The translations under genes were made by a program, and so were the position numbers. Positions 2,792 through 19,645 of a stretch of DNA of 64,000 bases are shown here, in pieces. Position 1 is the first letter of the stretch. Each line of letters begins with the position of its first letter. A model generated the notes under the pieces. The model was not told the origin of the DNA. It did not search any database and was given only the letters and a program-made list of their open reading frames with translations. Source of the DNA: Halopseudomonas xinjiangensis. Lineage in GTDB: Bacteria > Pseudomonadota > Gammaproteobacteria > Pseudomonadales > Pseudomonadaceae. The stretch covers positions 62,001 through 126,000 of the forward strand of contig DRFO01000012.1 of the NCBI GenBank assembly GCA_011050525.1, given 5' to 3'.

Positions 2792-2890
2792 AACGATGCC
2801 TCCTCAGGCAACCTACATTAAATCGACCAGCCAGGCGGGGTAGGTGGCCCGCTTTTCGCCCCGTCGGGCTAGACTGGTCAAACTCGGTTA

Positions 2891-3936: not shown

Positions 3937-3960
3937 GGTGATGTCTCCTGTGTAGTGAGA

Positions 3961-3993: not shown

Positions 3994-4050
3994 CACCTTT
4001 TCATGATAATCGATAAAAGATTAGCAAGGTTCAATTAACCTCCGAGGCGG

Positions 4051-4677: not shown

Positions 4678-4706
4678 GGGCCGTCCGTGGCGAGTCTAGA
4701 TATGGA

Positions 4707-5957: not shown

Positions 5958-6106
5958 CTTTTTAATCCCTCGGTTAGCCGTCAATCACCGGTCAATCACA
6001 TTTGGTTAAAACCGGTAATAACTGGTAAAGCGAGAATATGCCTGAAAGCCAGTAAATACAAGGGTTTGTGGTGTTTGGTAAAAATTGGTAAATCGATAAT
6101 AAAGAG

Positions 6107-6166
6107 ACTTAAAATCCCTCGGGGGTAACCCCGTGCCGGTTCGATTCCGGCTCCGGGCACCATCTA
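6107..6166 (+). repeat. att site: 3' half of tRNA-Leu(UAA), between elements 1 and 2
   Basis: The sequence starts in the anticodon loop (ACTTAAAATCCCTCGG), continues through a variable-arm stem and the T arm (GGTTCGATTCC), and ends with the acceptor strand and CCA at 6162. The 5' half of a tRNA is absent, so this is a fragment. Its first 16 nt and last 34 nt are identical to the copy at 19350-19409. The variable arm differs at three positions, two of which form a compensated base pair. It serves as the right end of element 1 and the left end of element 2. Confidence 0.9.
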
Positions 6167-6230
6167 GAACAAGCCTTCCAACCCTTTTTACACAATAACC
6201 TGCTCATGCAAGTTTGAAGTAAAATACCCC

Positions 6231-6251
6231 GCGAACCGTCCAGCGAACTGT
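6231..6251. promoter_or_regulatory. Tandem GCGAACCGT-type motif upstream of first satellite gene
   Basis: GCGAACCGT at 6231-6239 is followed 12 bp later by GCGAACTGT at 6243-6251, just before the first plus-strand gene of element 2. The same 9-mer recurs at 10906, 15632 and 19214 within this element. The repeats look like binding sites of an element-encoded regulator or replication protein. Confidence 0.5.
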
Positions 6252-6272
6252 CTGAGCGAGCGCACCTTTCCC

Positions 6273-6767
6273 ATGAATATCAACGAAACCGAATTAGCCA
6301 AGGCGCGGGCCGCTTGGAACGCTTGCCTCCAGCAGGAGCACGACGCCCAGCAGTTGCAAGAGCGGTTAGTGACGATTCGGGATAAGCTCCAGCCTGCCTT
6401 TGAGCGAATTGAATCCGCATGGTCCCAGCTACGCGCTGATGAAGAACTACGGGAAGTTCTAGGCGATCAGGTGGCGTGGCTAACCGATAACGTCCATGGC
6501 GCTGGCCCAGTTGAGCCGGCTCTAGAGACCCTTCGACACCTCGCCACACTGACCGCGTTCACACCCGGACGAACTGGCCGAGGCCACCACTCGGGCGTCA
6601 GTCTTGAGGCTATCCGTGCGGTTGCCCGTACCCTGGGCCTACGCAGCTACGGCAGTAGTCAGCGGACTAAGCCTCTTCCTGATGAACGCACGCTGCTCAC
6701 CGTCTGCAAGACCTTTGATGGACGTGTCTCTGCGGCCAACGTCCGCAACGCTCTTAAGACCCCGTAA
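6273..6767 (+). CDS. Hypothetical protein, coiled-coil rich
   Basis: This 164-residue protein has an N-terminal helical stretch (about residues 5-60, with QQEHDAQQLQERL) likely to form a coiled coil. A glycine/histidine-rich hinge (GRTGRGHHSG) follows, then a basic C-terminal region. It is the first gene inside element 2, 21 bp after a tandem GCGAACCGT motif. I recognise no family. A regulatory or DNA-binding role is possible but not shown. Confidence 0.6.
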   Translation: MNINETELAKARAAWNACLQQEHDAQQLQERLVTIRDKLQPAFERIESAWSQLRADEELREVLGDQVAWLTDNVHGAGPVEPALETLRHLATLTAFTPGRTGRGHHSGVSLEAIRAVARTLGLRSYGSSQRTKPLPDERTLLTVCKTFDGRVSAANVRNALKTP

Positions 6768-6879
6768 ATAGCTTTCGAAAATAACGTTCATTGGCGGGTC
6801 CCGCCACGCGGCGTCGTTTCTGCGAAAGTTTGCTCCATACGAGGCAGCGCGGTGCTGCCTCGATCATCAGGAGCACAAC

Positions 6880-7257
6880 ATGGATATTCACGAACGATTG
6901 AATAATCTTGAGAATGACATGAAGAGCATTCTTAGTGTTGCCAAGAGCTTCGTATTGGATGCGGAGCCTTCGCTTCGCTTCGGTGCGTGGCAAACTTGGA
7001 CAGAGAACGACTTACGGTATCCGCTGCAGGGCTTAACTGAGGCCTGTTGGGGAGAATGCGGCGAAACACTGGCAGCCGACGCACTTACCCTCGTTCGTGA
7101 TTTGGAGTTTGAATGTGTGCCCCAAGATCGAACCGTGTTTTTGACTATCCAAACGTTCGCTGACAAGCTGTCCGACCTCGGGGAGTCGGAGGATGCTCGT
7201 GCATTGGCGAAGCTGATTTTGAGTGCGCTAGATGCTTTCCCCCGGGTGACGCACTAA
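6880..7257 (+). CDS. Hypothetical small protein
   Basis: This 125-residue acidic protein with three cysteines has no signal peptide and no membrane segment. The N-terminal 20 residues look helical (MDIHERLNNLENDMKSIL) and the rest reads as a helical bundle. An AGGAGC ribosome-binding site precedes the ATG. It stands alone in the early part of element 2. I do not recognise the family. Confidence 0.6.
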   Translation: MDIHERLNNLENDMKSILSVAKSFVLDAEPSLRFGAWQTWTENDLRYPLQGLTEACWGECGETLAADALTLVRDLEFECVPQDRTVFLTIQTFADKLSDLGESEDARALAKLILSALDAFPRVTH

Positions 7258-7601
7258 CCCAGAGTTACCACTCCGGCCCGGTCTAGCAGGCGCTGCGCCT
7301 GCTGGGCTGGTCTGCGAGCCGTAAGACAGACCGTGCCCTCTCTCAGGAAACGGGATGTAAGTGTCACGAGTCATGCGTTGCCCGTTGCGGTGGGAGCGTA
7401 GATGTCGGAGGATTGAAAGCGTTAGCGAGAGCGTGCCTGAATCGACAGGACGAACCAGGACGGCCTACGGAGGGCAGTCCAGTAGCGGTGGCAGTCCGCA
7501 GCTAACAAGCGAACCCTGTTCCGCCGAGCTGGGTTCCATGCTTCGCCAGCAGTGTCCTGGGCGCTTCCGAATCTTGGCGATATCAGATTCGGAAAATTGT
7601 T
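7258..7601. other. 344-bp gene-free control region before AlpA-like gene
   Basis: No convincing gene is present. A strong hairpin (AGCAGGCG and CGCCTGCT, 3-nt loop) sits at 7285-7303, directly after the preceding gene, and may be a terminator or a structural element. The right end holds a perfect 10-bp inverted repeat at 7565-7594 that touches the next gene's translation start. The region probably contains the promoter of the regulator-primase operon. Confidence 0.5.
7565..7594 (+). promoter_or_regulatory. Inverted repeat overlapping the AlpA-like ribosome-binding site
   Basis: TTCCGAATCT at 7565-7574 is repeated inverted as AGATTCGGAA at 7585-7594 with a 10-nt spacer. The right arm ends 7 nt before the ATG at 7602 and contains the only purine-rich ribosome-binding candidate (GGAA). 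It could be an autoregulatory operator, or an RNA hairpin that hides the start site. Confidence 0.55.
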
Positions 7602-7853
7602 ATGTCCCATACTCCTGCCCAAGACGGCAACCTTACCGATAACGTCTCGTTCAACATGCCCAAGCGCTGGCTCCGTGCCAAGGAGACTGCCAAATATCTG
7701 GGCGTGTCCATCCCGCACCTCGCCCGCCTGCGTGAACTGAAGAAAGGCCCGCCGTATCGCAAGTTCGGCACCGTCGTTCTGTATGACATTCGCGAGCTGG
7801 ATGCCTACGTAGAAACACTGCCTCACGTCGAGACTAAGGGTGGTGGCCTATGA
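7602..7853 (+). CDS. AlpA-like helix-turn-helix regulator/excisionase
   Basis: This 83-residue protein has an HTH_17/AlpA pattern: RAKETAKYLGVSIPHLARLR, a basic wing (YRKFGTVVLYDIRELDAYV), then a short tail. In P4-like and related satellites, AlpA proteins switch on integrase or replication genes. The gene overlaps the primase-helicase start by 4 bp (ATGA), so the regulator and replication protein are translationally coupled. The second in-frame ATG at 7656 is a possible alternative start. Confidence 0.82.
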   Translation: MSHTPAQDGNLTDNVSFNMPKRWLRAKETAKYLGVSIPHLARLRELKKGPPYRKFGTVVLYDIRELDAYVETLPHVETKGGGL

Positions 7854-10291
7854 CCGCCGCCGCAAATGAAAGATGCCCCCGCCAGGGTGTGAACCTGGAA
7901 GGGGTCGCTAATGAAGTGAAGCTAGATCGACTGGTGCAAAATGAATCTTTCACTACGGAAGCCACTCAGCCAATCATCGATACCGCAGCCGCTGTCAGTT
8001 TCTTGCAGCGCTTCCATCCGGACGGGCTGTGGTCGCTGACCGCTATTTCGCCGGACAAGAAAGTTGTTCAAACCGCGACCTTCACTCCTAAGCAGGAGTC
8101 CGCTTGCTGCCAGTGGATCAACGACCGCAACGGTAAGCTGAATATCTACTTCAGCGCCAACCGGCCCATGCGCGACATGCGCAAGAAAGCCGAGAAGACG
8201 GATATCGGCGAGGCTTGCTGTCTTCACATAGACATCGACCCACGTGCTGGTGAGGACATCGGCGAAGAGCAGGAGCGAGCCTTGCGCTTGCTACGTGCAG
8301 CCAGCCCCGCACCCTCAGTCATCGTCTTTTCGGGCGGTGGCTTTCAAGCCTTCTGGCGCTTGGCGGAGCCAGTGGGGATCGACGGCGACCCACTCCAGGC
8401 GGAGGACTTCGAGCGATACAACATTCACCTGGAACGCCAGTTCGGCGCGGACAACTGCCACAACGTCGACCGGATCATGCGCCTGCCGGGCACGATCAAC
8501 CTTCCGGACGCGAAGAAGCTGAAAAAGGGGCGGAAGCCCGCCCTTGCCCGGCTGGTCGAGTTCAGCGAGAACGTCTACCCATTGTCGTCCTTCACTGCCG
8601 CGCCCAAGGTGCAGAAAGACGCGGGGTCCGGCTTCTCGGGGCGCTCAGTGGTGGTTTCGGGCAACGTCCAACGCCTGGATTCGGTTGATGATCTTGACCA
8701 GTGGGAGGCGCCTGACTGGCTGAAGGTACTCATCGTCCAAGGCAAAGACCCCGACGAGCCGCATAAATATCCCAGTCGCTCCGAAGCCTTATTTGCCTGT
8801 GTGTGCGAGTTGGTACGCCGGAGCGTCCCGGATGATGTCATTTTCTCAATCCTCACCGACGAGTCGTTCGGCATCGCTGAATCAGTAGTTGAACACAAGC
8901 GCCCTGAAAAATACGCGCTCCGCCAAATCGAACGCGCTCACGAAGACGCCATCAATCCTGTTTTGCGCGAGCTGAACGAGAGATTTGCTGTCATCGGCGA
9001 CATGGGTGGTAAGTGCCGAATCATCAGCGAGGTGTACGACGAAGGGCTCAAGCGGCACAAGATTAGTCGCCAGTCGTTCGAGGATTTCCGCAACCGCCAC
9101 ATGCATATCAAAGTTGCTGCTGGTGACGATGGCAAAGGCAACGTCCGGCATGCGAAGGCGGGCCACTGGTGGCTGGAGCAGCTGAACCGCCGCCAATACG
9201 ACCGCATCGTGTTTCTGCCGGGGCGTGAGGTGTCTCCCAACGTCTACAACCTTTGGAAGGGCTTCGCCGTCGATGCAGTTCCTGGGGAGGGTCACCTACC
9301 GTTCCTCGATCACATCCGCATCAACGTCTGCCAAGGTAACGAAGAACACTATCGCTATCTGCTCGGGTGGATGGCCCGCACGGTGCAGCAGCCCGACAGC
9401 CCAGGTGAAGTGGCAATCGTCCTTCGCGGGCAACGCGGCACCGGCAAGTCATTCTTTGCGAAGGTGCTGGGAAATCTGTTTGGGCGACATTTCATGCAGG
9501 TCTCTGACCCGAAGCACTTGGTGGGCTCATTCAACGCTCACCTTCGCGATTGCGTGGTGCTCTTCGCAGACGAAGCGTTCTATGCGGGCGACAAAAAACA
9601 TGAGTCGGTCCTGAAGATGATCATCACTGAGGAAACACTCGTGGTCGAGGGCAAGGGAGTGGATGCAGAAATCAGCCCGAACTATCTCCATGTCCTCATG
9701 GCATCGAACTCGGACTGGGTTGTCCCCGCTGGTGAGTTCGAGCGTCGATTCTTCGTGTTGGATATGGGTAACGACCATCGCCAAGATCGGGACTATTTCC
9801 GTAGCTTGCGCGAAGGGCTCGACACAGGCGGCATGGAAAATCTTCTTCATTACTTGCTGACCTACGACCTTTCGACCTACGAGGTTCGGGCCGTGCCCAG
9901 CACTAAGGCGCTTGAGGAACAGAAGGCATATTCCCTTGAGCCGTTCGAGCGCGAGCTGGTCGAGTGCGCTCAACTGGGCACCTTTCCGCAGTCCGTCTCC
10001 GAGGGCGGCACAGCACGCCCCATCATCCACTGGAAGGGGGGCGCCGCTTACTTCTCGACGGAGGCATTCATGGCTCACGTCCGGCAAAAGTCCCGGGGTT
10101 GCTCGATCAACCCAACCATGGTCGGGCGGGACGCCAATAAGATCGGGCTACAGAAGGCACATGCTAATCCACGGGGATACTTCGTCGGATCACTACAGGA
10201 GTTCCGCGACAAGCTATCGCAGACGGTCGCCGGGGTGGAATGGGATGCGGACATTGATGAATGGGTTGGGCTGGATAAGCCGGCCTTTTAA
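7850..10291 (+). CDS. Primase-helicase replication protein (AEP primase + SF3/DUF5906 helicase)
   Basis: This 813-residue bifunctional replication protein has an N-terminal half with an archaeo-eukaryotic primase pattern: HIDIDPRAGEDIGEE as the metal-binding acidic pair, SGGGFQAFWRL, and RIMRLPGTINLP. The C-terminal half is an SF3-type helicase of the DUF5906 kind: Walker A in GQRGTGKSFFAK, Walker B in VVLFADEAFY, sensor Asn in LMASNSDW and an arginine-finger region in FERRFFVLD. It resembles the P4 alpha strategy, in which one protein primes, unwinds and binds the origin. The iteron-rich region just downstream is its likely origin. Confidence 0.9.
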   Translation: MTAAANERCPRQGVNLEGVANEVKLDRLVQNESFTTEATQPIIDTAAAVSFLQRFHPDGLWSLTAISPDKKVVQTATFTPKQESACCQWINDRNGKLNIYFSANRPMRDMRKKAEKTDIGEACCLHIDIDPRAGEDIGEEQERALRLLRAASPAPSVIVFSGGGFQAFWRLAEPVGIDGDPLQAEDFERYNIHLERQFGADNCHNVDRIMRLPGTINLPDAKKLKKGRKPALARLVEFSENVYPLSSFTAAPKVQKDAGSGFSGRSVVVSGNVQRLDSVDDLDQWEAPDWLKVLIVQGKDPDEPHKYPSRSEALFACVCELVRRSVPDDVIFSILTDESFGIAESVVEHKRPEKYALRQIERAHEDAINPVLRELNERFAVIGDMGGKCRIISEVYDEGLKRHKISRQSFEDFRNRHMHIKVAAGDDGKGNVRHAKAGHWWLEQLNRRQYDRIVFLPGREVSPNVYNLWKGFAVDAVPGEGHLPFLDHIRINVCQGNEEHYRYLLGWMARTVQQPDSPGEVAIVLRGQRGTGKSFFAKVLGNLFGRHFMQVSDPKHLVGSFNAHLRDCVVLFADEAFYAGDKKHESVLKMIITEETLVVEGKGVDAEISPNYLHVLMASNSDWVVPAGEFERRFFVLDMGNDHRQDRDYFRSLREGLDTGGMENLLHYLLTYDLSTYEVRAVPSTKALEEQKAYSLEPFERELVECAQLGTFPQSVSEGGTARPIIHWKGGAAYFSTEAFMAHVRQKSRGCSINPTMVGRDANKIGLQKAHANPRGYFVGSLQEFRDKLSQTVAGVEWDADIDEWVGLDKPAF

Positions 10292-10368
10292 TTCGGTGGG
10301 GGTGATAACGGTGAGGGGGCTTCGGCCCCTTTCTGCTGTCTGGGCGGTTGCGCCGGGGTGGCTGGCCC

Positions 10369-10620
10369 AACCCGCAGCCGCATGCGGGTTTGCAACAGAC
10401 CCGCAAGGCTCAATCCCTGTAGAGACCGGGCTTACAGCGGGTGCGCGGGTTTGCGCGTGTTGACTTAAGTCGCTAGGCCGAGAGCTGCCCTGGTGCGGGG
10501 TGGCGAGTTCTTTATTCTTTTAATTATTAATAAAAAAAACTCGCTAAACCCGCCTTAAGCCCCGTCTCTACAGGGGTGCGGGTTTGCTGCGGGTAGGCCG
10601 AGCAAGCGGGTTGTACCCGC
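10369..10620. other. Putative replication origin of element 2
   Basis: The 10-mer GCGGGTTTGC occurs at 10384-10393, 10445-10454 and 10578-10587, with inverted partial copies near 10369-10376 and 10546-10553 and a palindrome GCGGGTTGTACCCGC at 10606-10620. A 19-bp inverted repeat with one mismatch (10415-10433 and 10557-10575) frames an AT-rich core at 10506-10538, itself flanked by GCGAGTT and AACTCGC. Iterons around an AT-rich segment directly after a primase-helicase gene match the P4-type origin layout. Function is inferred. Confidence 0.65.
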
Positions 10621-10893
10621 AATGGGCATGGAGCCACCGGGTGGTGCATCTTCTGCGTTATCCATTTCAACTGACACTCTCGCGTCCGCACGCGAACAAC
10701 TAGCCCCGTACGCAGTTCCTGGCCAGCTCTCCCAGCCCCGACGGCACCAACCAGCAAGGCACCCAGCCGCTGGCCCGCCTGGGCCGTGCCGTAGCTCCTC
10801 GGCCCGCCTAGGAATCCCGCCGGAATATCACTGGCAAGTTCGAGTTACCGCGCCGTGCCCGCCAGGTGAGGGATTCCAGCAGTATTCACCTGA

Positions 10894-10914
10894 ACGAACC
10901 GTGTAGCGAACCGT
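10894..10914. promoter_or_regulatory. Tandem GCGAACCGT-type motif, second copy
   Basis: ACGAACCGT at 10894-10902 and GCGAACCGT at 10906-10914 are 12 bp apart, the same spacing as the pair at 6231. They lie in the gene-free stretch just past the stop of the minus-strand lipoprotein gene. Confidence 0.45.
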
Positions 10915-10920
10915 TTGCCG

Positions 10921-11442
10921 CTACGGCTGGCGGTCTACTTCGCTCAAAAAGCGCTTCATCGCATGGAACGCTTTACTATCGTTGTTTCCATCAATTACGG
11001 CGTCCTCCGCATAACCGGACGTGGTGTTGACTCGAAGCCATGTCTTCCCAGACATGGTGATCTTGCGGACAAGACTCGTTGGCACGAGGAAACCTTTTCG
11101 TGATTCTTTAGTTGCAGCACCAAACTCGCTGAAGTTAGTGAATGTCTCCATGACGCGCAATTGGTACACCTCGCCATCAATATTCAGCTTTGCGCCGGTA
11201 ATGGCGTTTATGCTGTTGAATATGCTGACGACTAGGATCGTTTCTTCAGGTCGAGCGGCGTTCCAGTAAGCGCCAAGGCCGGTGCAAACCATCCCGGAGC
11301 AAGCATTGCCGTGTGGATTGATCCGTATCACCGTCGCGTTATCAAAACCGCTATGCGATACAACGGGTCCGGTCCCGGATGTTGTCGAGCAACCGGATAA
11401 AAGGACTGTAAAAGCTATTGTTACGAAAATTCCCTTCGTCAT
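10921..11442 (-). CDS. Satellite-encoded lipoprotein
   Basis: The first 20 residues form a signal peptide ending in the lipobox LLSGC, so the mature protein would be lipid-anchored at Cys18. The remaining 155 residues read as a beta-rich domain with two further cysteines (NACSGMVCTG), and no known family is recognised. It is the only minus-strand gene in the middle of element 2 and stands alone, the usual position of a cargo or lysogenic-conversion gene. A surface role such as superinfection exclusion is possible but only inferred. Confidence 0.7.
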   Translation of the reverse strand: MTKGIFVTIAFTVLLSGCSTTSGTGPVVSHSGFDNATVIRINPHGNACSGMVCTGLGAYWNAARPEETILVVSIFNSINAITGAKLNIDGEVYQLRVMETFTNFSEFGAATKESRKGFLVPTSLVRKITMSGKTWLRVNTTSGYAEDAVIDGNNDSKAFHAMKRFLSEVDRQP

Positions 11443-11601
11443 GACATTCCTTAGTTATGCGTTGCTTAAGAGCTGCTCGACTATTAATCCCAAATAGCCA
11501 TTAGTCAAGCTACTGCCCGAGTTGTAATCCACCTCAAAAATGATATCGCTACAGCATTGCAACCGAGATGATTCTTTGAGCTGCAGAGGTCGGGGGACCG
11601 C

Positions 11602-11931
11602 ATGACATTCACTGCACGCGCCCGAAGCGGCACCGAAACTCATTACGAGATCGAGCAAGACGAAGACGAGCTGCCGGATAGCCCGGAGCAACAGCTGGCC
11701 TCTGCGGTTTTGCTCCAGGCGTGGAGTGATGCGAACGCAACGCTGCAAACGCTGAAGTACAGCAAGGGCTTCGGGTCACCCGAGCGGGCGATCAGTTCAG
11801 CGAGACGATTCCTGACCGCTGAGCTTCCGTGCCCCTGGGCTCGCCAGCGCCAGCTATTCACGGGCGCGTTACCGGTTGACGACGTGGCCATCCGCTTGCG
11901 TGCGGTGGCTGTGTTTGGAGAGGGATATTGA
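11602..11931 (+). CDS. Hypothetical protein upstream of small terminase
   Basis: This 109-residue protein is acidic near residues 15-30 (EIEQDEDELPDSPEQQL) and then helical, with a conserved-looking SARRFLTAELPCPWARQRQ segment. It ends 1 bp before the start of the terminase-like gene, so the two are probably co-translated. No family is recognised. Its position suggests a packaging or regulatory role, which is inference. Confidence 0.6.
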   Translation: MTFTARARSGTETHYEIEQDEDELPDSPEQQLASAVLLQAWSDANATLQTLKYSKGFGSPERAISSARRFLTAELPCPWARQRQLFTGALPVDDVAIRLRAVAVFGEGY

Positions 11932-11932
11932 A

Positions 11933-12568
11933 ATGAGTATCAAACCTAAAACCGGAGGCGGTGGCCGCCCCGGCGCTCCGGTGGGCCGCAAGCCTAAGAC
12001 GCCGGTGGCGAATGCTGCGATGACCGACAAAAGGAAAGCTATATTCCTATCGGAGCTGAGTAAGCACGGGATCGTGAGCGCTGCCGCCCGTGCTGCCAGC
12101 CCACACGCTCAGGGCACTTGCGCACCTTCCTTCTACATCCTGCGCCGCAATGATCCGGAATTTGCAGCGGCCTGGGACGATGCCATCGAACAAGCCACGG
12201 GCAGCGTCGAACTGGAATTGCACCGCCGCGCCGTCGAAGGTTACGAAGAACCCGTATACCAGAAAGGTGAATTGGTCGGCACAGTCACCAAATACAGCGA
12301 CCGCTTGCTGGAAATCCGAGCCAAGGCGCTGATGCCGAACAAATACATCGAGCGGCGGGCCGTCGAACTTAGCGCGAACCTCAACGTAACCCAGGAGCTG
12401 TATGGCGGCCATGCGCTGACATTGAAGCCAGAGGACGTTTTGTTGCTGGACGAGGACAAGCGCCAGCTGCTGCTGAGCCTGCTTACCGACATTGCCGTGG
12501 CACGGGGCGACCTTCGGGACGTTGAACCAGAGCCGGTGGGCCTGCTGGGGGTAGACGATGATCGGTGA
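11933..12568 (+). CDS. Terminase small subunit-like protein
   Basis: The ATG at 11933 gives 211 residues. A basic Gly/Pro/Lys leader is followed by an HTH-like region (SELSKHGIVSAAARAASPHA) and then the pattern NDPEFAAAWDDAIEQATGSV, HRRAVEGYEEPVYQKGELVG, KYSDRLLEIRAKALMPNKY. This combination is typical of phage small terminase and terminase-like DNA-recognition proteins. No large subunit gene follows. In PICI satellites, a resident TerS redirects the helper phage packaging motor to satellite DNA, and that is the likely role here. The family call is strong. The hijacking role is inferred. Confidence 0.8.
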   Translation: MSIKPKTGGGGRPGAPVGRKPKTPVANAAMTDKRKAIFLSELSKHGIVSAAARAASPHAQGTCAPSFYILRRNDPEFAAAWDDAIEQATGSVELELHRRAVEGYEEPVYQKGELVGTVTKYSDRLLEIRAKALMPNKYIERRAVELSANLNVTQELYGGHALTLKPEDVLLLDEDKRQLLLSLLTDIAVARGDLRDVEPEPVGLLGVDDDR

Positions 12569-12785
12569 CTTCCTCACCCAAGTGCGGGGGCTGGTCAGCT
12601 TCGAGGCGGAAAATGGCGTTCCCGCTCGGAGAACGCCGTTTGGCTTCTTGATGCCGGACTACCAGCAGGACAACGAAGGCATGGATCTGTGGGAGAAGCA
12701 GTTCGGCGAGAAGGCGAAGGGGACAACCCGCGTACCCATCCCGCCGCCTCGGAAAGTCCGCAGCGCGCACGATCGAACCGTCTAA
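12558..12785 (+). CDS. Hypothetical small protein overlapping terminase-like gene
   Basis: This 75-residue protein starts 11 bp before the terminase-like stop. It has an N-terminal helix (MIGDFLTQVRGLVSF) and a basic proline-rich tail (RVPIPPPRKVRSAHDRTV). Short proteins of this kind follow terminase-like genes in several Pseudomonas elements. I cannot assign a function. Confidence 0.55.
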   Translation: MIGDFLTQVRGLVSFEAENGVPARRTPFGFLMPDYQQDNEGMDLWEKQFGEKAKGTTRVPIPPPRKVRSAHDRTV

Positions 12786-12949
12786 CACGCTGTGACTCCC
12801 GTCTCGCTCGCCCACCTGGGTAACTAGACATTACTCCGCCTGTTCTGGCCGCCAAAACTGACAGCGCCTCCCGGATGCCTGGGGAATGATTCTCGTGCAG
12901 GTGCTGGGAGTGGTTCCCGGTGCCGCTTTATCCAAGGTGGAGAAGCCGC

Positions 12950-13663
12950 ATGTCCAAACTCAAAATCAAACGGGTACTCAATCGAGGCCACGTCCAAGAA
13001 CTCCGCGCCTCGCTGAAGAACCATGAAGCGACCTTGCGCGAACTACGCGAAGCCGTAGTGAATGCTCCCGCTGTTGCCTTCAAACGCGCCCTGGAAGAGG
13101 TAGGTCGAATCGACATGCCCAAGTCCGAGCGCGAGCTGTTCGCCCGTCGCAAGGCCGATACCCAAGTGAAGGACGTTCGCCAAGCTGCCCGTGAGCGAGC
13201 TGACGCGATCAAGGAGGACTTAGCTGGCGCTCGCGAGCTGCTGGCCCTGTCGAAAGATGCTCTATCGAACCCGTTCGCCGTGCTGGATTCGCAGACCCTG
13301 GACGATCCCCGCCGTGCGACCTACATGGCGAATCTCGTGGGTGCTGGCCCGCTGGCGCTGAAACACGCCGCTGAACAGGCAGCCGCCACTAACGACGCCG
13401 CCCTTGCCGCTGCTGTCATCAGCGTGTTGGAGCGGATGCCGACCGCCGACCGACCGTTCTACCCGCAAGCAGTCCTCGAGATCTTCCCGGACGATCACGA
13501 CGTGTTCCAGCCCATGCACGAATACCTCGACGCCGAACGTACCCTGCAAGATTCTGTGTCCCTGTTCAGCGAAGTGCTCAACGGCTCCGCAACCATCACC
13601 GGCAAGATCAGCCGGGGCTTGCGTGCTGAGGAAGCGTCAGCAACCGAAGAGGGTGACGCATGA
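12950..13663 (+). CDS. Hypothetical coiled-coil protein of the packaging-region operon
   Basis: The ATG at 12950, preceded by GGTGGAG, gives 237 residues. Residues 15-105 are strongly charged and helical, with a likely coiled coil (ELRASLKNHEATLRELREAV). The C-terminal half holds an alanine-rich helical domain (KHAAEQAAATNDAALAAAV). The protein ends in an acidic tail. It overlaps the next gene by 4 bp. A scaffold-like or capsid-interacting role would fit its shape and position, but no homology is claimed. Confidence 0.6.
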   Translation: MSKLKIKRVLNRGHVQELRASLKNHEATLRELREAVVNAPAVAFKRALEEVGRIDMPKSERELFARRKADTQVKDVRQAARERADAIKEDLAGARELLALSKDALSNPFAVLDSQTLDDPRRATYMANLVGAGPLALKHAAEQAAATNDAALAAAVISVLERMPTADRPFYPQAVLEIFPDDHDVFQPMHEYLDAERTLQDSVSLFSEVLNGSATITGKISRGLRAEEASATEEGDA

Positions 13664-14028
13664 GCGACTTAGCGACTCTTTCCAATGAGGAACTGGCGCA
13701 GCGGATCTTCGACACGCTAACAGATACCGAGGCAGCCGCTCTTGGTTCTGCCTGTATGATCGCAAGCGCCCTGGGCCAGGACCGACCCGATGTGAAGACG
13801 GCTCGCGCCTGCTGCGAGCTGGTAGGCGAAAAGCCCGACCGTTTGATGGCCTTTCTTGGCTACGTCCCGCTAACGGGGCACCCGAACGGCTGGGTCAACG
13901 TCGAGAAAGGCTCGAACGGCCCCGGACTAGTCGGCAGCGAGCAGACCCTGGGCCTGTTTGTCTTCCGCCAGCTCGGAGGCGTTCTCCGAGCCAATCTGCG
14001 AACCAAGCAACCTTCTAAGGAGCAATGA
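13660..14028 (+). CDS. Hypothetical protein
   Basis: This 122-residue protein has an acidic helical N-terminal half and a second half with short hydrophobic strands (LMAFLGYVPLTGHPNGWVNV). It overlaps both neighbours by 4 bp, making it the middle of a tightly coupled three-gene run (12950-14312). No known domain is recognised. Confidence 0.6.
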   Translation: MSDLATLSNEELAQRIFDTLTDTEAAALGSACMIASALGQDRPDVKTARACCELVGEKPDRLMAFLGYVPLTGHPNGWVNVEKGSNGPGLVGSEQTLGLFVFRQLGGVLRANLRTKQPSKEQ

Positions 14029-14312
14029 CAATGCCGCAATTCATCTTGTACGCCGACCAACCCCAAACCCGCCGCGCCGACGGTGTGAACACTCTCGTAG
14101 TGGTCGCCGCTGACCCTGCATCCGCCCCGGCAGCGGCCCGCGCGCTCGTGCGTGGTGTTGCTCCGGACGCCTTCAATGACTTCCGAACCGTAGCCCTGGG
14201 CGCCGGAACCGAATTTGTTGTCGAGGGCTCGCCGCTTGTTGGTCGCCCGGACAACGCTGAAGGCTTCCCCACCCTTGGCCGTGGTGGCCAGCGGACGCTG
14301 ACGCCTGCATAA
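14025..14312 (+). CDS. Hypothetical small protein ending the TerS-region operon
   Basis: This 95-residue beta-rich protein (TMPQFILYADQPQ, NTLVVVAADP, TEFVVEGSPLVGRP) has no signal peptide. It overlaps the previous gene by 4 bp and is followed 23 bp later by a Rho-independent terminator, so it closes the operon. It might be a decoration or head-associated protein, but nothing in the sequence proves that. Confidence 0.6.
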   Translation: MTMPQFILYADQPQTRRADGVNTLVVVAADPASAPAAARALVRGVAPDAFNDFRTVALGAGTEFVVEGSPLVGRPDNAEGFPTLGRGGQRTLTPA

Positions 14313-14334
14313 CCGAACTCCTGTGGCACCCCTT

Positions 14335-14363
14335 GCCCGGAACCGAAAGGAACCGGGCTTTTT
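14335..14363 (+). terminator. Rho-independent terminator of the TerS-region operon
   Basis: GCCCGG at 14335-14340 pairs with CCGGGC at 14353-14358, followed by a run of T residues. It lies 23 bp after the last gene of the run. Confidence 0.75.
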
Positions 14364-14449
14364 ACCTTTAGGCGGTGCGTTCAGACGGTCCGTCATGCCA
14401 GTGACTACCGGCCTCCCTGAGCAGACCAGCAGTAGCCAGTAACTGCGAC

Positions 14450-14995
14450 TTACTGGTCCGCTTCTGGCAGCGCGAAGGTTCCGCGCCCGACACAGGCGAT
14501 GGTGTGGCCGCTACGGCGGGCGGTGTCGATGGTCGAGCGTGCCCTCTTCTGGTCCATACCCAGCATCTCGGCCAGCTCGGCGACGGTACGCGGACCGCTG
14601 GCGAGCGCTGCCAGGAGTTCATCGACGCGGGCCTTGAGTCCGGCGGGCTGGGCCTTGGCCTGGGCGGTGGCTGCGCCCTCTACGGGCTCCTCGGCAGTGC
14701 TAGGCGCAGTGGGGGCGGGAGCTGCCCCCACTGCGCCTGGGGTGACGGGCTCCTGCACGCTTTCGGCCGGCTCCGGCGCAACCTCGGCGGGCTCTTCCTG
14801 GGCAGCCTCTTCGAGTTGGACGAGCTGCGGCTCAATCAAGGCCCAGACCTGCTGCATGCCCTTGGCGCGTTTCAGGAATTGCTTGGTGTTCTTGCCGGTG
14901 ACGCTGTTGTAGTAGGTCAGCAGGTCGGCGGTGGAGACCTTATTCAGGTCGGCAAAGCAGATGATGTTGGCGTCAGCGATGCGGATCATGGCCAT
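14450..14995 (-). CDS. Putative winged-helix DNA-binding protein with Pro/Ala/Glu linker
   Basis: This 181-residue protein has three parts. Residues 15-60 are helical (NKVSTADLLTYYNSVTGKNT), residues 63-117 form a low-complexity Pro/Ala/Glu linker, and residues 118-175 look like a winged helix (RTVAELAEMLGMDQKRARST, then IACVGRGTFALP). An inverted GACCG and CGGTC pair sits just upstream of its start (near 15011). It points opposite to the TerS-region operon and could be a repressor of one of the two flanking transcription units. The family is not recognised with certainty. Confidence 0.65.
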   Translation of the reverse strand: MAMIRIADANIICFADLNKVSTADLLTYYNSVTGKNTKQFLKRAKGMQQVWALIEPQLVQLEEAAQEEPAEVAPEPAESVQEPVTPGAVGAAPAPTAPSTAEEPVEGAATAQAKAQPAGLKARVDELLAALASGPRTVAELAEMLGMDQKRARSTIDTARRSGHTIACVGRGTFALPEADQ

Positions 14996-15182
14996 TCTCC
15001 TTTTCTGGTAGACCGATCGTGCGGTCGGTTAGAAGAATCCTGTCCAGCTTGCTGAAGACCGACAATAGCTGGAGAAGGGTTTGCCGGCAAATTGCCATGT
15101 CCGGCGCACGAGGGTAGCGGTAAAGTAGCCATGACCTGAGCGGCAACCGCCCAGACGGAATATTCAGAGAAGGGACAATCAA

Positions 15183-15614
15183 ATGAAAAGAATAGGGATT
15201 CTGCTTGGCGTATTCGCAGTGCTCGTTGTTGTGGGATCGGCTTTGAATGGCGGGAAATCTGGGCAGACGAGACAACAACCTGTTGTTGCGATAACATCCG
15301 AAAAAGCCAAGGAAACGCCATTGACGCCGGCCGAAAACAAAGCCCGGCAGGAGAAGTGGTTTGGTGCCGCGACGATCATTGCGGCTCAGAAGGCGGTTCG
15401 TGCCGAGGTCAAAGACCCAGACTCTGTGCAATTCAAAGACGTTTTCTCCAACTACACCGAAGCATATGACGTCGTGGCTTGTGGCTATGTCAATGCCAAA
15501 AATAGCTTTGGTGCTTATACCGGCTACAAGGCATTTGTATCGAGTGGCAAGAGCGTCATCCTGGAAGGCAGGGATGAAATCAAAACTGCGTGGGCGAGCG
15601 CATGCGGCCAATAG
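15183..15614 (+). CDS. Membrane-anchored hypothetical protein
   Basis: This 143-residue protein begins with a single membrane segment or uncleaved signal (ILLGVFAVLVVVGSAL), then a Gln/Thr-rich linker. A periplasmic-type domain follows with the pattern KDPDSVQFKDV, VVACGYVNAKN and YTGYKAFV plus two cysteines. Proteins with this C-terminal pattern are common in mobile elements and prophages. The function is unknown. A good AGAGAAGGG ribosome-binding site precedes the ATG. Confidence 0.65.
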   Translation: MKRIGILLGVFAVLVVVGSALNGGKSGQTRQQPVVAITSEKAKETPLTPAENKARQEKWFGAATIIAAQKAVRAEVKDPDSVQFKDVFSNYTEAYDVVACGYVNAKNSFGAYTGYKAFVSSGKSVILEGRDEIKTAWASACGQ

Positions 15615-15631
15615 ACGGCTCTACAGACACT

Positions 15632-15640
15632 GCGAACCGT
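15632..15640. promoter_or_regulatory. GCGAACCGT motif upstream of Cys/His-PIN module
   Basis: A single exact GCGAACCGT lies between the membrane-anchored gene and the Cys/His-protein gene. It matches the copies at 6231, 10906 and 19214. The 165 bp that follow, to the next start, contain an AT-rich stretch with a run of ten T residues and no gene. Confidence 0.4.
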
Positions 15641-15805
15641 GCGAGTCCCCGCCCTTAACCTATATCTGCCGGGCGCTCGCAGGAACTAGAGGTTCCCAGT
15701 GATCAATAGCTCAACTAATCGCTTGCATCGTCCCTTGAATATTTGTATCAGTATCTGTTGATAACATGATGTTTTTTTTTGCATGCAATGGAGCTGCCTA
15801 GGTCA

Positions 15806-16720
15806 ATGGATTATCTAAACATACAAACGTACGAAGAGCTGTTAGTCAGGGAAGGCTTTCATCCTGACCTTGACTTCTACCCAAAGGGCGAGCGCCGCTT
15901 TGGCGATGTGCTAGGACCGTACCGATTTGTAAAAAAGATCCTGTGTGGTATCTCCAGCTGCCACACGCCCCACTTGCACGGCTATCTGATCACCACGAGT
16001 GACGGCTTCGAAACGGCCATTGGAGGCGACTGCGGCGCTCGCCATTTCGGCGTGCGGTTCACCAAAGAGCGGAGGCGCGTCGAGTCCGCGATGAGGCGCG
16101 ACCAACGGATTAAGGCGATTCAAAACCTGATCCTTACTCTTCCGGACATGATTACTACGATACGCCAACTCGAAAACGACTATCGCACCCTACAAGACCT
16201 CAAAATGCGTCTGATGGGCGCTACCACACCGAACTTCGTGAAGCAGCTCAAGGAGCGAGCCGAACGCGACGGGGCCACGATAACTCGAAGTGAGCCGATG
16301 ACGAAGGACGAAGCAGCCGCTTACTTTGCTACTAGCAACAAGCAGAATCGGACAAAACAGGATTGGCCACAGAAGGAGGTCTTTGTCGCGAAGCTGGACG
16401 GGCTTTCTTTTTTCAAGGTGCAGTTCAAGGATTTGCTCGTGACAAACCTGCTCGAGCCGCTGAATCGTTTGAGCCAAACCAGGGCAGAAGAGATCGAGGA
16501 AATGGGGCCAAAGGAACTCGCTCGAACGGCCAAATGGGTAGGCAACGTCCCTCGCGAAATCGCTAATGCACAAAGCGCGATCGATGCAGGAAAGAGGTTC
16601 TTCGCAGCTGATAACATCAGCAAGCTCGTCCATCTAGGGGCTGACAACTCAGCGCTCGCGCCGATGATATTGGACCTGCGCGGGCAGTCAGATTCGTCAA
16701 TTCGCCCCGTTGTCGCATGA
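15806..16720 (+). CDS. Cys/His-motif hypothetical protein paired with PIN nuclease
   Basis: Starting from the ATG at 15806 (15788 is possible), the protein has about 304 residues. Near residues 47-58 it has the pattern CGISSCHTPHLHG, followed by GGDCGARHFG around residues 73-82, which could bind zinc. Residues 95-150 look like a long helix or coiled coil, and a second helical region lies in the C-terminal half. I know this motif pair only from uncharacterised proteins. The PIN gene starts 35 bp downstream on the same strand, suggesting a two-gene operon. Defence or regulatory function is inferred from context only. Confidence 0.6.
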   Translation: MDYLNIQTYEELLVREGFHPDLDFYPKGERRFGDVLGPYRFVKKILCGISSCHTPHLHGYLITTSDGFETAIGGDCGARHFGVRFTKERRRVESAMRRDQRIKAIQNLILTLPDMITTIRQLENDYRTLQDLKMRLMGATTPNFVKQLKERAERDGATITRSEPMTKDEAAAYFATSNKQNRTKQDWPQKEVFVAKLDGLSFFKVQFKDLLVTNLLEPLNRLSQTRAEEIEEMGPKELARTAKWVGNVPREIANAQSAIDAGKRFFAADNISKLVHLGADNSALAPMILDLRGQSDSSIRPVVA

Positions 16721-16755
16721 CATTCGGTCCCCGGGAAACTTAGGGAGAAGTTTAG

Positions 16756-17865
16756 ATGAATTCTAGTGGTTTCGATTCGATTGTGGTGGACACCTCGATT
16801 TTTATCAGTAATGGCCTTCGACTTGAGCGCGGACTGTTAGGGAAGCTATCGCAGTTTCAGCGCAGCCCGGTTGATCTGATACTGCCGGACGTCATCAGGA
16901 GCGAACTACAAAAGCATCTGGAGTCTAAAACAAAAGAAGTCAAGCTTAAGCTAGAGAGAGCGTTGAACGATGCAAGCGATCACTTGGCTAGCGAAGGAAA
17001 TGCATCGGATGAGCACAGCGTTGCTGTCGCCGACATTCCGGCCTTTGTAGAAGGACGCATACGAGATTTTTGTAATCGGATCGGTGCAGTTCCCTTCGAG
17101 TGCGGGGTTCACGTATCGGTAACCGAAGTTCTTTCTCGATATTTTTTGAGCGAAGCTCCTTTCGCTGAAACTGGGAGTAAAAAAGCGGAGTTTCCCGATG
17201 CGATTGTACTGATGGCGATCCACAACTGGGCAGAAAAGGAAAACCGCGACGTACTGCTCGTTTCAAATGATAAAGGCTGGGAAAACTACTGCGCCTCGGC
17301 GAGCCGGTTGACATGCGTGGCCGACCTTTCCGAAGCGCTAGTCCTTTTCAACGAGACCAATGCGGTATATGAGTTTGTAGCTAGGCTTGAGAGCGAGCTG
17401 GACGCGGGTCGCGCTGTTTCGTTTACACGCCAGGTGGAGGAGGGACTTTCTCGAGCCTTAGACGGGATCACCCCAGAACAAGAAGCAGATTCTTACCTAT
17501 ATTGGGAACCAGATGGCTGCAGCGCTACATTCCAAAACTTCGCTTTGGTCGAAAATAAATTTTCTATAATCGACCAATACGAAGATTGGGTAGCGCTGTC
17601 TACCGTCGCAACCATCGGGATTGAAGCGGAAGGAGATTTTTCATTATCGGTTCACGATTCTATCGATGGAGATTATGTCCCGATGGGAGGAGTCACCGCC
17701 TCGGCAGAGGCCGTTTTCGAATCGGAAATATTGATTACTGTATCTGGTGACATATTTGGATCGATTGACCAGCTGGAAGTGATCGACGTTGAAGTTCTTG
17801 ATCCAATTACAAGCGTTGACTTCGGAACGATAGAACCTGATTTCGGGAACGACTATCACGACTAA
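16756..17865 (+). CDS. PIN-domain ribonuclease-like protein with C-terminal extension
   Basis: This 369-residue protein has an N-terminal PIN nuclease fold (residues 8-195) with the expected acidic residues: Asp12 in VVDTS, Glu50 in RSEL, Asp148 in EFPDAIVL and Asp172 in SNDKGW. The spacing resembles the large DUF4935-type PIN proteins. Residues 240-369 form a separate acidic, beta-rich domain of unknown type. A GGGAGAAG ribosome-binding site precedes the ATG. In the lines I counted, base composition is near 50% GC, visibly lower than the primase region. This fits recently acquired cargo. Likely an RNA-cutting effector. Confidence 0.8.
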   Translation: MNSSGFDSIVVDTSIFISNGLRLERGLLGKLSQFQRSPVDLILPDVIRSELQKHLESKTKEVKLKLERALNDASDHLASEGNASDEHSVAVADIPAFVEGRIRDFCNRIGAVPFECGVHVSVTEVLSRYFLSEAPFAETGSKKAEFPDAIVLMAIHNWAEKENRDVLLVSNDKGWENYCASASRLTCVADLSEALVLFNETNAVYEFVARLESELDAGRAVSFTRQVEEGLSRALDGITPEQEADSYLYWEPDGCSATFQNFALVENKFSIIDQYEDWVALSTVATIGIEAEGDFSLSVHDSIDGDYVPMGGVTASAEAVFESEILITVSGDIFGSIDQLEVIDVEVLDPITSVDFGTIEPDFGNDYHD

Positions 17866-17896
17866 ACGCCCGAGAGGTGGCGTCGCCAATCGGAAT

Positions 17897-19171
17897 TCAC
17901 GCCACAGCCCTCCTAGCAAGCGGCAGGACGTTGCCGTGAATCTGGCCCAGAAGGTACGCCGTAACTCGACCTTGCGCCTCTCTAAGCGTTGCTCCAAGCG
18001 CTGAGCCGTGAATATACCCGCCCGTTACCCCGGGCAGCTGGTGGTTGAGCAGAAGCTTGATGGTAAACGGGTCCATGCCCACAGCGGCGGCGGCGGTTGC
18101 GTACGAGTGGCGCAGCGCGTGGGGATTAACCAGCCCCTTGACCTTCACATGTGCCTCAGTGAGATGCCCGGACGCTGAGAAGTGCGAAGGAAAGAGCCAA
18201 GGGTGATCCTTACCAAATACCTCAACGTTCTCCTTGACCCGCTGACGGAGCATGTCCACCAAGAAGCCAGACAGCGGAAGGTCGAAGGCCCGCTTCGGCC
18301 CGCCCTTGGGATTGGGCACGTGCAGGAACCCGTTTTCTAAATCCAAATGCTCCATGCGGGCCTCGCTTGCCGCGCCCCGGCGCATACCCGTAAACGCGAG
18401 AAAGATATACCAATCTCGTGTCACCGGATTACGGAGCCCTTGCACGGCGGCCCAATAGGCGGGCCAGTCGGTAACAATGACGTTCCGGCGCTTCTCGTCG
18501 TTGAAGTCCACCGCGTCCGTGGGCGGCGGCGGGAGGTCGCGCATTTTGCGCCGGGCATGGCGATAGACCGCCCGGACGAGTCGCATGGTCTGGTTGGCCG
18601 CCACTGGGCCGTTGTTCTTGGTAATGGCGCGGTGGCGCTCATCGACGCCGAGGGTGTCGTCGCCAATTTCCCGCAGCGGGCGGTCGGCCCAGTCCTTGAG
18701 GTAACGCTCGAAAAGATTGCGATAGCCCTGCACAGTGCTTGGTCGGCGGGCCTTACGCTCGCAGCGATCAATATACGAGTCCAGCGCCTGACCGAAGGTG
18801 AACTCCTTCTTCGCCACTGGCTGTGCCTCGGGTTCGGCGGGCTTGTTAGGGTCGATGCCTGCCCGGAGCTGGCCAATTACGTCCTGAGCCTTCGCCCGGA
18901 CAGCCTCGATTGAAAGGAACTGCTTTGCGTCGCCCAAGCGGACGCGGCGGGTGCCGAGCTTCACGCGCCGCCCCTGGACATCTCGTTCTTCGGAGTACAG
19001 GTCGCGCTGAACTGCAAACGACTTCGAGTTGGCGTTCACGACGACCATCAGCCCAGGCGTAAGGATGTCGCGGACGGAGTACGATAGAACCCTGCCGCGC
19101 TCGTCGCGCTCAGCTGGTGGCAGGTTCTCGACGAAACGGATGGTTAGCTTTGTGGGGTTGTATTTGGCCAT
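17897..19171 (-). CDS. Tyrosine recombinase/integrase of element 2
   Basis: This 424-residue integrase has an N-terminal DUF4102-like region (SVRDILTPGLMVVVNANSKS), a core-binding domain near residues 130-215 and a C-terminal catalytic domain. The catalytic motifs are Arg in FTGMRRGAASEARM, His-x-x-Arg in PHALRHSYATAAA and Tyr386 in GGYIHG. It shares little visible sequence with the element 1 integrase, although both target a tRNA-Leu 3' half. It starts 178 bp from the right att copy. A GCGCACCGT/GCGAACCGT pair lies 32-51 bp upstream of its start. Confidence 0.92.
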   Translation of the reverse strand: MAKYNPTKLTIRFVENLPPAERDERGRVLSYSVRDILTPGLMVVVNANSKSFAVQRDLYSEERDVQGRRVKLGTRRVRLGDAKQFLSIEAVRAKAQDVIGQLRAGIDPNKPAEPEAQPVAKKEFTFGQALDSYIDRCERKARRPSTVQGYRNLFERYLKDWADRPLREIGDDTLGVDERHRAITKNNGPVAANQTMRLVRAVYRHARRKMRDLPPPPTDAVDFNDEKRRNVIVTDWPAYWAAVQGLRNPVTRDWYIFLAFTGMRRGAASEARMEHLDLENGFLHVPNPKGGPKRAFDLPLSGFLVDMLRQRVKENVEVFGKDHPWLFPSHFSASGHLTEAHVKVKGLVNPHALRHSYATAAAAVGMDPFTIKLLLNHQLPGVTGGYIHGSALGATLREAQGRVTAYLLGQIHGNVLPLARRAVA

Positions 19172-19202
19172 TGTGGCTGCTCCTTGGTTAGTCCAAGAGG
19201 CA

Positions 19203-19222
19203 GCGCACCGTCCGCGAACCGT
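19203..19222. promoter_or_regulatory. GCGAACCGT-type pair upstream of integrase 2
   Basis: GCGCACCGT at 19203-19211 and GCGAACCGT at 19214-19222 are 11 bp apart and sit 32-51 bp upstream of the minus-strand integrase start, a position suited to promoter control. They belong to the element-wide motif family. Confidence 0.5.
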
Positions 19223-19349
19223 GCGGGCTGCAGACCGGGGCTGCCTCTGGATACTGAACTCTTGAGTAAACAGCCGTCGCAGCCAATCAGTTTGTTGAGA
19301 TACGGAGCCTAAATGCCTGTAAACGCTTGCGAATGATGGCTACACGTGA

Positions 19350-19409
19350 ACTTAAAATCCCTCGGAGGCAACTCCGTGCCGGTTCGATTCCGGCTCCGGG
19401 CACCATCTA
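19350..19409 (+). repeat. att site: 3' half of tRNA-Leu(UAA), right end of element 2
   Basis: The sequence begins with ACTTAAAATCCCTCGG and ends with the T arm, acceptor strand and CCA at 19405, plus TCTA beyond it. The first 16 and last 34 nt equal the copy at 6107-6166. Between them the variable arm reads CGGAG-GCAA-CTCCG instead of CGGGG-GTAA-CCCCG, so the stem differs by one compensated pair. From here on the gene content is ordinary core genome. The 236 bp from 19410 to 19645 show no gene. Confidence 0.9.
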
Positions 19410-19645
19410 ACATGCGGCTTTCAGCGATACGGTACTTTTCCGGTCTTTTCCGCAAAACCTGATCTTTTTCCTGTTCCGCAAAAAGCTTTCCTTCCGTAAT
19501 TTTCGGGTGGAGCGACTATTTGGCTATTAAATGCTGCTTGGCTGAATCTTTGCCTCCTCCTCTGTATCACCTTGTCTTCCGACACGAACTATTACTGGCT
19601 GTGGCCGTCCCAATTCAACAGGTTTTAGTTTGACAGGGGATTGGT

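Follow-up and report, generated by a model that had tools for sequence, protein, structure and literature searches.

A candidate PICI-like satellite of Bradleyvirinae-type siphophages at a tRNA-Leu gene of Halopseudomonas xinjiangensis, with the parts of a small terminase on two genes

We analysed a 64-kb stretch of the genome of Halopseudomonas xinjiangensis (G000:C12:62001-126000, contig DRFO01000012.1), hereafter named the window, and in it a 13.2-kb element at positions 6107-19409, hereafter named element B. Its gene content is that of a mobile satellite resembling phage-inducible chromosomal islands (PICIs), and its helpers are probably virulent siphophages of the Bradleyvirinae type (family Mesyanzhinovviridae). 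Six near-complete elements of this kind were compared: element B, its relatives in Pseudomonas duriflava (locus L006), Lysobacteraceae bacterium NML95-0200 (L007) and Gulbenkiania mobilis (L008), and two virome contigs (L011 and L015). Fifteen main genes of element B, the small gene g05b and one doubtful open reading frame (ORF) were scanned against Pfam and PHROGs. The features are as follows (aa, amino acids; TerS, small terminase subunit; E-values follow family names).

6107-6166, plus strand: left repeat, derived from the 3' part of tRNA-Leu(TAA), where the tandem element A adjoins
6273-6767, plus strand: g01, 164 aa, conserved element-end protein with no assigned function; 41-58% aa identity in the five other near-complete elements
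6880-7257, plus strand: g02, 125 aa, weakly conserved (25% to L006, unmatched in the remaining four), no well-supported family
7255-7601, plus strand: leader upstream of alpA, alignable in 6/6 relatives with a mean column identity of 80%
7602-7853, plus strand: AlpA-like excisionase/activator, 83 aa; PF12728 (HTH_17) 1e-7, phrog_66 2e-8
7850-10291, plus strand: primase-helicase, 813 aa, RepB_primase and DUF5906; phrog_1829 5e-104
10415-10442 and 10548-10575, no strand: intergenic inverted repeat of 28 nt with a 105-nt loop, candidate origin
10921-11442, minus strand: g05, lipoprotein, 173 aa; phrog_7678 2e-54
11602-11931, plus strand: g05b, 109 aa, small gene directly 5' of terS
11933-12568, plus strand: g06, TerS of the putative satellite, 211 aa; phrog_4044 1.2e-33; N-terminal and central part without the phage C-terminal tail
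12558-12785, plus strand: g07, 75 aa, TerS C-terminal tail at residues 42-58; 11-nt overlap with terS
12950-13663, plus strand: g08, 237 aa, predicted all-helical; hallmark near terminase genes in cousin elements
13660-14028, plus strand: g09, 122 aa, conserved, no assigned function
14025-14312, plus strand: g10, 95 aa, conserved, no assigned function
14450-14995, minus strand: g11, 181 aa, N-domain of the Bradleyvirinae-type gp08 family, linker and winged-helix-like C-domain
15183-15614, plus strand: g12, cargo, 143 aa; phrog_2320 8e-19, a family without known function
15779-16720, plus strand: g13, cargo, 313 aa; phrog_7003 7e-54, a family without known function; 27-28% to two Pseudomonas phage proteins
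16756-17865, plus strand: g14, cargo, 369 aa, PIN-domain protein; PF16289 2e-29
17897-19171, minus strand: integrase, tyrosine recombinase, 424 aa; PF00589 6.7e-13; 89-93% aa identity in relatives
19350-19409, plus strand: right repeat (attR), part of tRNA-Leu(TAA)

A preliminary description of this stretch had placed an integrase, an AlpA-like helix-turn-helix protein, a primase-helicase and a TerS in 13.2 kb between tRNA repeats, and all were recovered (PF00589, PF12728, phrog_1829, phrog_4044 and the 60-nt repeats). It had also noted no large terminase (TerL), portal, capsid, tail or lysis gene; the scans of the element B genes gave no credible Pfam or PHROG match to any of these, nor to a connector. 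The database search of the proteins had been set beforehand as the refuting test of the satellite reading. It returned no virion homologues: no capsid, portal or TerL lay among the hypothetical proteins, and the gene set was not homologous to a full-length prophage. The satellite nature of element B is well supported at the level of sequence. Two weak matches, of the lipoprotein g05 to an Rz-like spanin (E 0.064) and of g11 to a tail fibre (E 0.099), were discounted.

The two repeats bounding element B are direct repeats of 60 nt, in the same orientation and 95% identical, which correspond to the part of tRNA-Leu(TAA) from the anticodon loop to the CCA end. No intact tRNA was found inside the window. 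An intact tRNA-Leu(TAA) lies about 20 kb leftwards at C12:47940-48026 (L004 1941-2027), adjoined by a third copy of the repeat (C12:47966-48031), and the left repeat is therefore the junction of two elements in tandem. Element B is the right-hand member, and a distinct 20-kb prophage-like element, element A, is on its left. The earlier reading of the repeats as attachment sites thus stood as to their tRNA origin, while its left site turned out to be this junction. On the right, homology to relatives stops at 19403-19429, at most 20 nt from the end of the repeat, in all six relatives tested (L006, L007, L008, L011, L015/L024 and L023; query extended to 21000, L008 aligned as two pieces). On the left, homology with L006, L007, L008, L011 and L015 begins at 6226-6234, immediately inside the repeat. 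An intact tRNA-Leu(TAA) is present at the g01 end in 5/5 of the other elements; the intact copy of H. xinjiangensis stands at the far end of the tandem. A look for the empty site, through right-flank homologues at the loci of nine relatives, found no tRNA gene nearby.

Element A spans about C12 47967-68107 (L004 2027-19001 plus window 1-6107) and occupies the same tRNA-Leu. It carries HK97-type head genes, TerS, TerL, portal, connectors, major tail protein, tape measure and integrase, and terminates shortly past the tape measure; no tail-tip or lysis gene was found among 17 of its proteins scanned. It may represent a capsid-forming satellite or else a prophage that has been trimmed. An Rfam int-alpA RNA lies within it (window 2812-2879, minus strand, 65.7 bits).

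In headful packaging, TerS picks the DNA to be packaged (described in part in PMC9611059), and a satellite would therefore be expected to carry its own TerS. The parts of this protein were found on two adjacent genes of element B. The phage C-terminal tail is absent from g06 (score 19, versus 76 for g07), which ends in a different sequence. It is present in g07, which begins 11 nt before the end of terS and whose residues 42-58 correspond to the last part of the TerS of phage PaMx11 at 14 of 17 positions. Smith-Waterman scores of g07 against four phage TerS proteins were 76-77, reached by none of 5000 shuffles of g07 in each case; these proteins ranked 1-4 among the 1796 ORFs of the four phages, and the next score was 44. 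Searched with tblastn (E<=10) against all 50,697 phage records of our comparison set, g07 matched 15 records, which are the 16 matched by g11 (see below) minus Epa19. Seven of the 15 matches are annotated as TerS, and seven more lie at the TerS position: the second records of Ab18 and Ab19, Epa5 (two records), Lucjan, Ab20 and Epa43. Lucjan, Ab20 and Epa43 were placed by a TerS core match just upstream and Epa5 by its own check; the one remaining match is that of phiW8-1. At the DNA level, the g07 tail is 96% identical to Epa5 over 27 nt, and the terS of L008 is 89% identical to that of Ab19 over 73 nt. The g06-g07 pair is kept in all six elements, with the tail readable in each.

In P22 and lambda, TerL is bound by the C-terminus of TerS, through residues 140-162 in P22 (PMC9611059, PMC6739421). 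Since g07 holds the phage TerS tail, it may provide this TerL contact in trans, as an adaptor for g06, as a competitor of the helper TerS, or both. A programmed frameshift joining g06 and g07 was rejected, as their relative frame, worked out by hand, differs among elements (+1 in the window, -1 in L006 and L007). Given the 11-nt overlap in the window, coupled translation is the likelier reading.

Other genes point to the same phages. A DNA search of the phage records with the whole element gave eight matches, all to Pseudomonas phages and all through a single stretch of the primase gene, which is about 74% identical to Abidjanvirus primases over 1.8 kb; the protein shares 72% aa identity with Ab19 gp22. 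The primases of L008 and L007 had the same phages as best matches, with about 60% and 55% identity, the latter over 42% of the protein. Residues 1-54 of g11 matched only 16 records among the 50,697, all 16 being Pseudomonas phages, at gp08 in the case of Ab19; the DNA of this domain is 77.5% identical to phage over 120 nt. A linker follows in both g11 and Ab19 gp08, and the C-domains differ, that of g11 matching HTH_5 at 7.6e-4, under the Pfam cut-off. We regard g11 as a candidate helper-sensing regulator. Ab19, PaMx11, AIIMS-Plu-RaNi and Epa5 are classified in Mesyanzhinovviridae, Bradleyvirinae. The lipoprotein g05, a candidate superinfection factor, shares 49% aa identity with PaMx74 gp09 and is also found in an Acinetobacter and a Janthinobacterium phage; it was not found in Ab19, PaMx11 or AIIMS-Plu-RaNi.

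We compared 14 proteins of element B, leaving aside primase and integrase, with 1255 ORFs of Ab19, PaMx11 (first 50 kb) and AIIMS-Plu-RaNi, using ten shuffles each. Clearly above the shuffles were only g06 (208 versus a null maximum of 66), g11 (189 versus 64) and g07 (77 versus 49). Clearly common to element B and the nearest phages are only TerS, its tail (on g07), the primase and the N-domain of g11. Separately, g13 scored marginally above its null (73 versus a maximum of 58) against a membrane protein encoded close to the lysis genes in the three phages, possibly through composition.

For Mesyanzhinovviridae, the 2025 paper on phage Lydia suggests circular permutation with headful packaging. 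Its authors detected no integrase in the 75 genomes that were correctly classified, and no bacterial sequences clustered with the large terminase of the family (PMC11946847). A TerL of the Ab19 type had no match in the host of element B or in two of three hosts of its relatives, and only a 25% identical one in Gulbenkiania. Taken together, sequence comparisons support well a helper of the Bradleyvirinae type, which would likely be virulent rather than a resident prophage. Inducing resident prophages, as the preliminary description had proposed, is thus probably the wrong test.

Several observations weigh against a mobile satellite with this helper. The g07 tail match covers only 16-18 residues, with E 0.3-1 per record, so that what counts is its position in the phage genomes; moreover, the 15 records stand for about 11 related phages and are not independent. 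The g06 core shows no particular affinity to the TerS of Ab19, PaMx11 and AIIMS-Plu-RaNi (36-37% aa identity) and aligns better with those of a Rhodobacter phage (44%) and of Achromobacter phages (39-48%; JWX 48% over 108 residues). Proteins g01, g02, AlpA, g05, g05b, g08, g09, g10, g12 and g14 did not rise above ten shuffles in the three phages. In the primase tree, satellites and phages were joined weakly, with long-branch warnings, and the five satellite primases did not form one group. No 13-mer was common to the six satellites and the three phages, so that no shared pac site was found. Terminal repeats, expected of a circular form, were not found in ten whole contigs (three fragments of near relatives, four cousins and three other TerS-bearing contigs). 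The missing resident TerL is what one expects of a virulent helper, and equally of no helper. Reports of temperate cycles in Mesyanzhinovviridae are cited, and doubted, in PMC11946847.

To assess the distribution of the element, TerS was searched in 84,980 species genomes by a pattern-based method that detects close relatives only; 4 loci were confirmed from 281 stretches. Three are L006, L007 and L008 (86%, 86% and 83% TerS identity, respectively), and the fourth is a distant one in Sphingobium (43% over 75 residues). The family, assigned beforehand to relatives of Pseudomonas, is not confined to them; the Lysobacteraceae strain and G. mobilis also carry it. Scans of viromes added L011, L015/L024, the fragments L014 and L023, and L016, which is probably the Gulbenkiania element again, as well as a 100% copy of the element of the window (L010/L012/L031). 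Common to the six near-complete elements are the integrase (89-93%), AlpA (74-90%), primase (39-91%, broken in L006), TerS (83-97%), g07, g08, g09, g10, g11 and g01. In L007, L008 and L015, the genes from alpA through g11 run in the opposite orientation with respect to the element ends. No virion gene was seen in the five other elements (ORF lists of L006, L007, L008 and L011; L015 by tblastn only).

The ratio of nonsynonymous to synonymous substitution rates (dN/dS), calculated pairwise against the genes of the window, was below 1 in every computed pair, with dS above 1 in several distant pairs and L015 entered for g07 only. Values were 0.04-0.09 for the integrase, 0.03-0.13 for g06, 0.09-0.20 for g07, 0.14-0.37 for g08, 0.08-0.31 for g09, 0.13-0.35 for g10, 0.33-0.55 for g11 and 0.11-0.38 for AlpA. 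The gene g05b is kept in L011 (80% aa identity, dN/dS 0.33) and readable in L006, where it is fused in one ORF with terS. The shared gene set is under purifying selection. Cargo, by contrast, is swapped between relatives and often defensive, of the restriction-modification kind: L007 carries an N6/N4 methylase and a ScaI-type enzyme, and L008 a methylase and a type II enzyme. Similar pairs were read in L006 and L011, the latter with an Mrr-type protein in addition. In their place, the window carries g12, g13 and the PIN protein g14, for which no PADLOC or NCBIfam match was found.

Three further observations concern the surroundings of these relatives. In L006, a 5' tRNA-Leu remnant lies at 4615-4654 and a whole tRNA-Leu at 4757-4844 beside g01, as if borne by the element. 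An HK97-type prophage adjoins the element in L011 (13531-16915), and L023 carries a nearby second integrase gene (80-1009) with 71% nucleotide identity to the one in element A. The two types of element may habitually stack in tandem.

From these data a cycle may be proposed. Entry of the helper would be sensed, possibly through g11, whose N-domain matches the helper gp08. AlpA and the integrase, judging by their families, would then excise the element from tRNA-Leu(TAA), and the primase-helicase, helper-derived by homology, would replicate it. Next, g06 would select satellite DNA and the g07 tail would dock it to the helper TerL, the small terminase acting as two polypeptides; in doing so, g07 may also block the contact between TerS and TerL of the helper. 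Headful packing into helper heads would follow, with g08-g10 perhaps, more speculatively, adjusting the motor or the head.

A different helper, such as element A or another HK97-type prophage, would turn the Bradleyvirinae-like genes into relics of exchange. Element A does sit at the same tRNA-Leu site, the L011 and L023 neighbourhoods hold an HK97-type prophage and an element-A-like integrase, respectively, and satellites swap replication genes; the primase tree does not unite the five satellite primases. However, the TerS of element A belongs to phrog_83 and is paired with a phrog_9 TerL, whereas g06 belongs to phrog_4044, and the primase, g11 N-domain, TerS family and TerS tail all point to one phage group, two of them being found only there. 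We therefore regard another helper as unlikely. More improbable still is an immobile or purely defensive island, in which the TerS core, tail and g11 are decoys that poison Bradleyvirinae packaging and regulation with no transfer. A free TerL-docking tail would be expected to compete with the helper TerS, relatives carry restriction-modification cargo and g05 resembles a phage lipoprotein. Yet few genes are as constrained as the integrase, AlpA, the primase and the flanking repeats persist, and distant bacteria hold the element at a single kind of site; all of this favours mobility. That element B is a full-length prophage in decay, or a pair of unrelated fragments, as the phage-type primase and TerS and the prophage genes left of the repeat might suggest, is very improbable, as the gene set recurs in five more elements with mostly intact frames (the P. 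duriflava primase excepted) under purifying selection and as a published search reports Mesyanzhinovviridae to be without integrases (PMC11946847). A mobile satellite of Bradleyvirinae-type phages remains the most probable reading.

PICIs lack virion genes, and none was recognised in element B. Capsid-forming PICIs (cf-PICIs) bring their own capsid and packaging genes, whereas element B has no capsid, portal or TerL match. Sid, Psu and Delta of P4-like satellites had no Pfam or PHROG match in element B, which is weak evidence of their absence. With PICIs and the related SaPIs, element B has in common an integrase, AlpA, a primase, a TerS (present in some) and exchanged accessory genes (PMC6092414). 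It displays the PICI features of an integrase with a specific attachment site, an AlpA-type regulator with a primase module, and no structural or lysis genes. Unlike PICIs, its primase and TerS are of the Bradleyvirinae kind, the TerS tail is on a separate gene and the predicted helper is virulent. No PICI-specific gene was recognised in the Pfam and PHROG scans, in which no PICI profile set was included.

Phage-inducible chromosomal minimalist islands (PICMI), satellites of virulent Vibrio phages, resemble element B in their HTH_17-type AlpA, DUF5906 primase and virulent helper, predicted in the case of element B (PMC10803314). They differ in integrating at fis, with six genes in the type element, compared with tRNA-Leu(TAA), TerS, g07-g11 and 13 kb here, and the word "terminase" is absent from the text of that paper, whereas element B has a TerS. 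The PICMI primase combines DUF3987 with DUF5906; that of element B combines DUF5906 with RepB_primase, DUF3987 not being listed, and PF12728 is present. AH14b of Pseudomonas sp. ANT_H14 shares with element B a Pseudomonas host, an integrase, an AlpA-like protein, a primase and the lack of capsid genes; its att-like 18-bp repeat is, by our reading, tRNA-like. According to PMC4936722, no terminase is recognised in AH14b, whose helper is a resident prophage; element B bears a TerS. Ab19, PaMx11, AIIMS-Plu-RaNi and Epa5 are full phages with structural genes, in a family reported without integrases, whereas element B has no set of head and tail genes. By the features compared, element B is PICI-like in gene content and is not of the PICMI, cf-PICI or AH14b type.

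The arrangement of g07 recalls Rpp of PICIs and CpmB of SaPIs, each of which mimics part of a helper protein needed for assembly and thereby redirects that protein (PMC6739421, PMC5644958). Rpp imitates the DNA-binding domain of TerS (PMC6739421), while g07 imitates the opposite end, the C-terminal tail, beside a satellite TerS core. CpmB has the C-terminal capsid-binding motif of the scaffold (PMC5644958) and is the nearest precedent for imitation of the g07 type.

We further investigated the distribution of g08. Its AlphaFold model (pLDDT 85.8) is all-helical with a long hairpin and gave no informative fold match. A single-protein query found homologues in 3 of 369 class-level genomes, and an alignment query did so in 3 of 398 phylum-level genomes, the own genome being counted in each. 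Homologues were also present in virome contigs; no plasmid copies were found. Sixteen g08-bearing elements were examined: the six near relatives, seven with TerL (L029, L030, L033, L034, the right one of L035, L036 and L037) and three with TerS only, namely the left one of L035 (E 6e-27) and, with weak matches, L042 and L041 (E 7e-5 and 2e-4). A terminase gene lies at most about 2.5 kb from g08 in all 16. No portal or capsid gene was seen in them, by a gene-by-gene scan for element B, in part for L029 and L030, and by ORF translations or tblastn for the rest. The TerL is of the PF04466/phrog_2 kind, called by HMM in L029 and L030 and by 77-92% identity to the L029 TerL in the other five; compared with phage TerLs, that of L034 shows 24-30% identity (best 15 of 234 records). 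Besides TerL and the g08 homologue, the TerL elements carry an integrase, AlpA, primase and resolvase, although some of these genes were not seen in some of the cut contigs; the elements lie mostly near tRNA-Thr or tRNA-Ser genes.

A broader reading, which we put forward tentatively, is that these elements include a new satellite family of virulent Bradleyvirinae phages whose TerS is cut into a DNA-selecting core (g06) and a free adaptor (g07) with the TerL-docking tail, which would recruit the helper motor and deny it to the helper. The family would be part of a wider g08-marked set of capsid-less, terminase-carrying elements, one branch of which, with its own TerL, would need a helper for heads and tails only. 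If the helper assignment is true, the helper of a satellite would have been named from its genes, and Bradleyvirinae-type phages would be predicted to move genomic islands between bacteria. Phages of this group infect Pseudomonas aeruginosa and are discussed for phage therapy (PMC11946847). Contact of the g07 tail with the helper TerL would offer a simple means for a satellite to take over a headful motor, complementing the Rpp strategy. With g08 as a marker, it becomes possible to look more widely for capsid-less elements that carry terminase genes, among them some with a TerL of their own. In the collection of papers searched, we found no satellite of Mesyanzhinovviridae described; PMC11680426, PMC12141233, PMC10889362 and PMC12931631, whose texts mention both the family and satellites, present none in the title or the start of the abstract.

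Some minor observations were made on these and neighbouring sequences. The leader upstream of alpA is possibly a regulatory region; a structured RNA in it was not supported by covariation (+1.83). The predicted model of g09 was unusable (pLDDT 49.9). An Rfam SrbA sRNA lies in the right part of the window (56625-56839, plus strand, 109.1 bits). In L034, L036 and L037, a protein of 144-147 aa before TerL looks TerS-like by eye and had no PHROG match. On virome contig L035 (129-14579), two g08 elements stand in tandem, of which one has a TerL and the other a TerS only. L042 holds a 13.9-kb element (2340-16306) between 46-nt tRNA-Lys repeats, with an integrase, a primase, a TerS-like gene, a g08 homologue and, by eye, a cytosine-methylase-like cargo.

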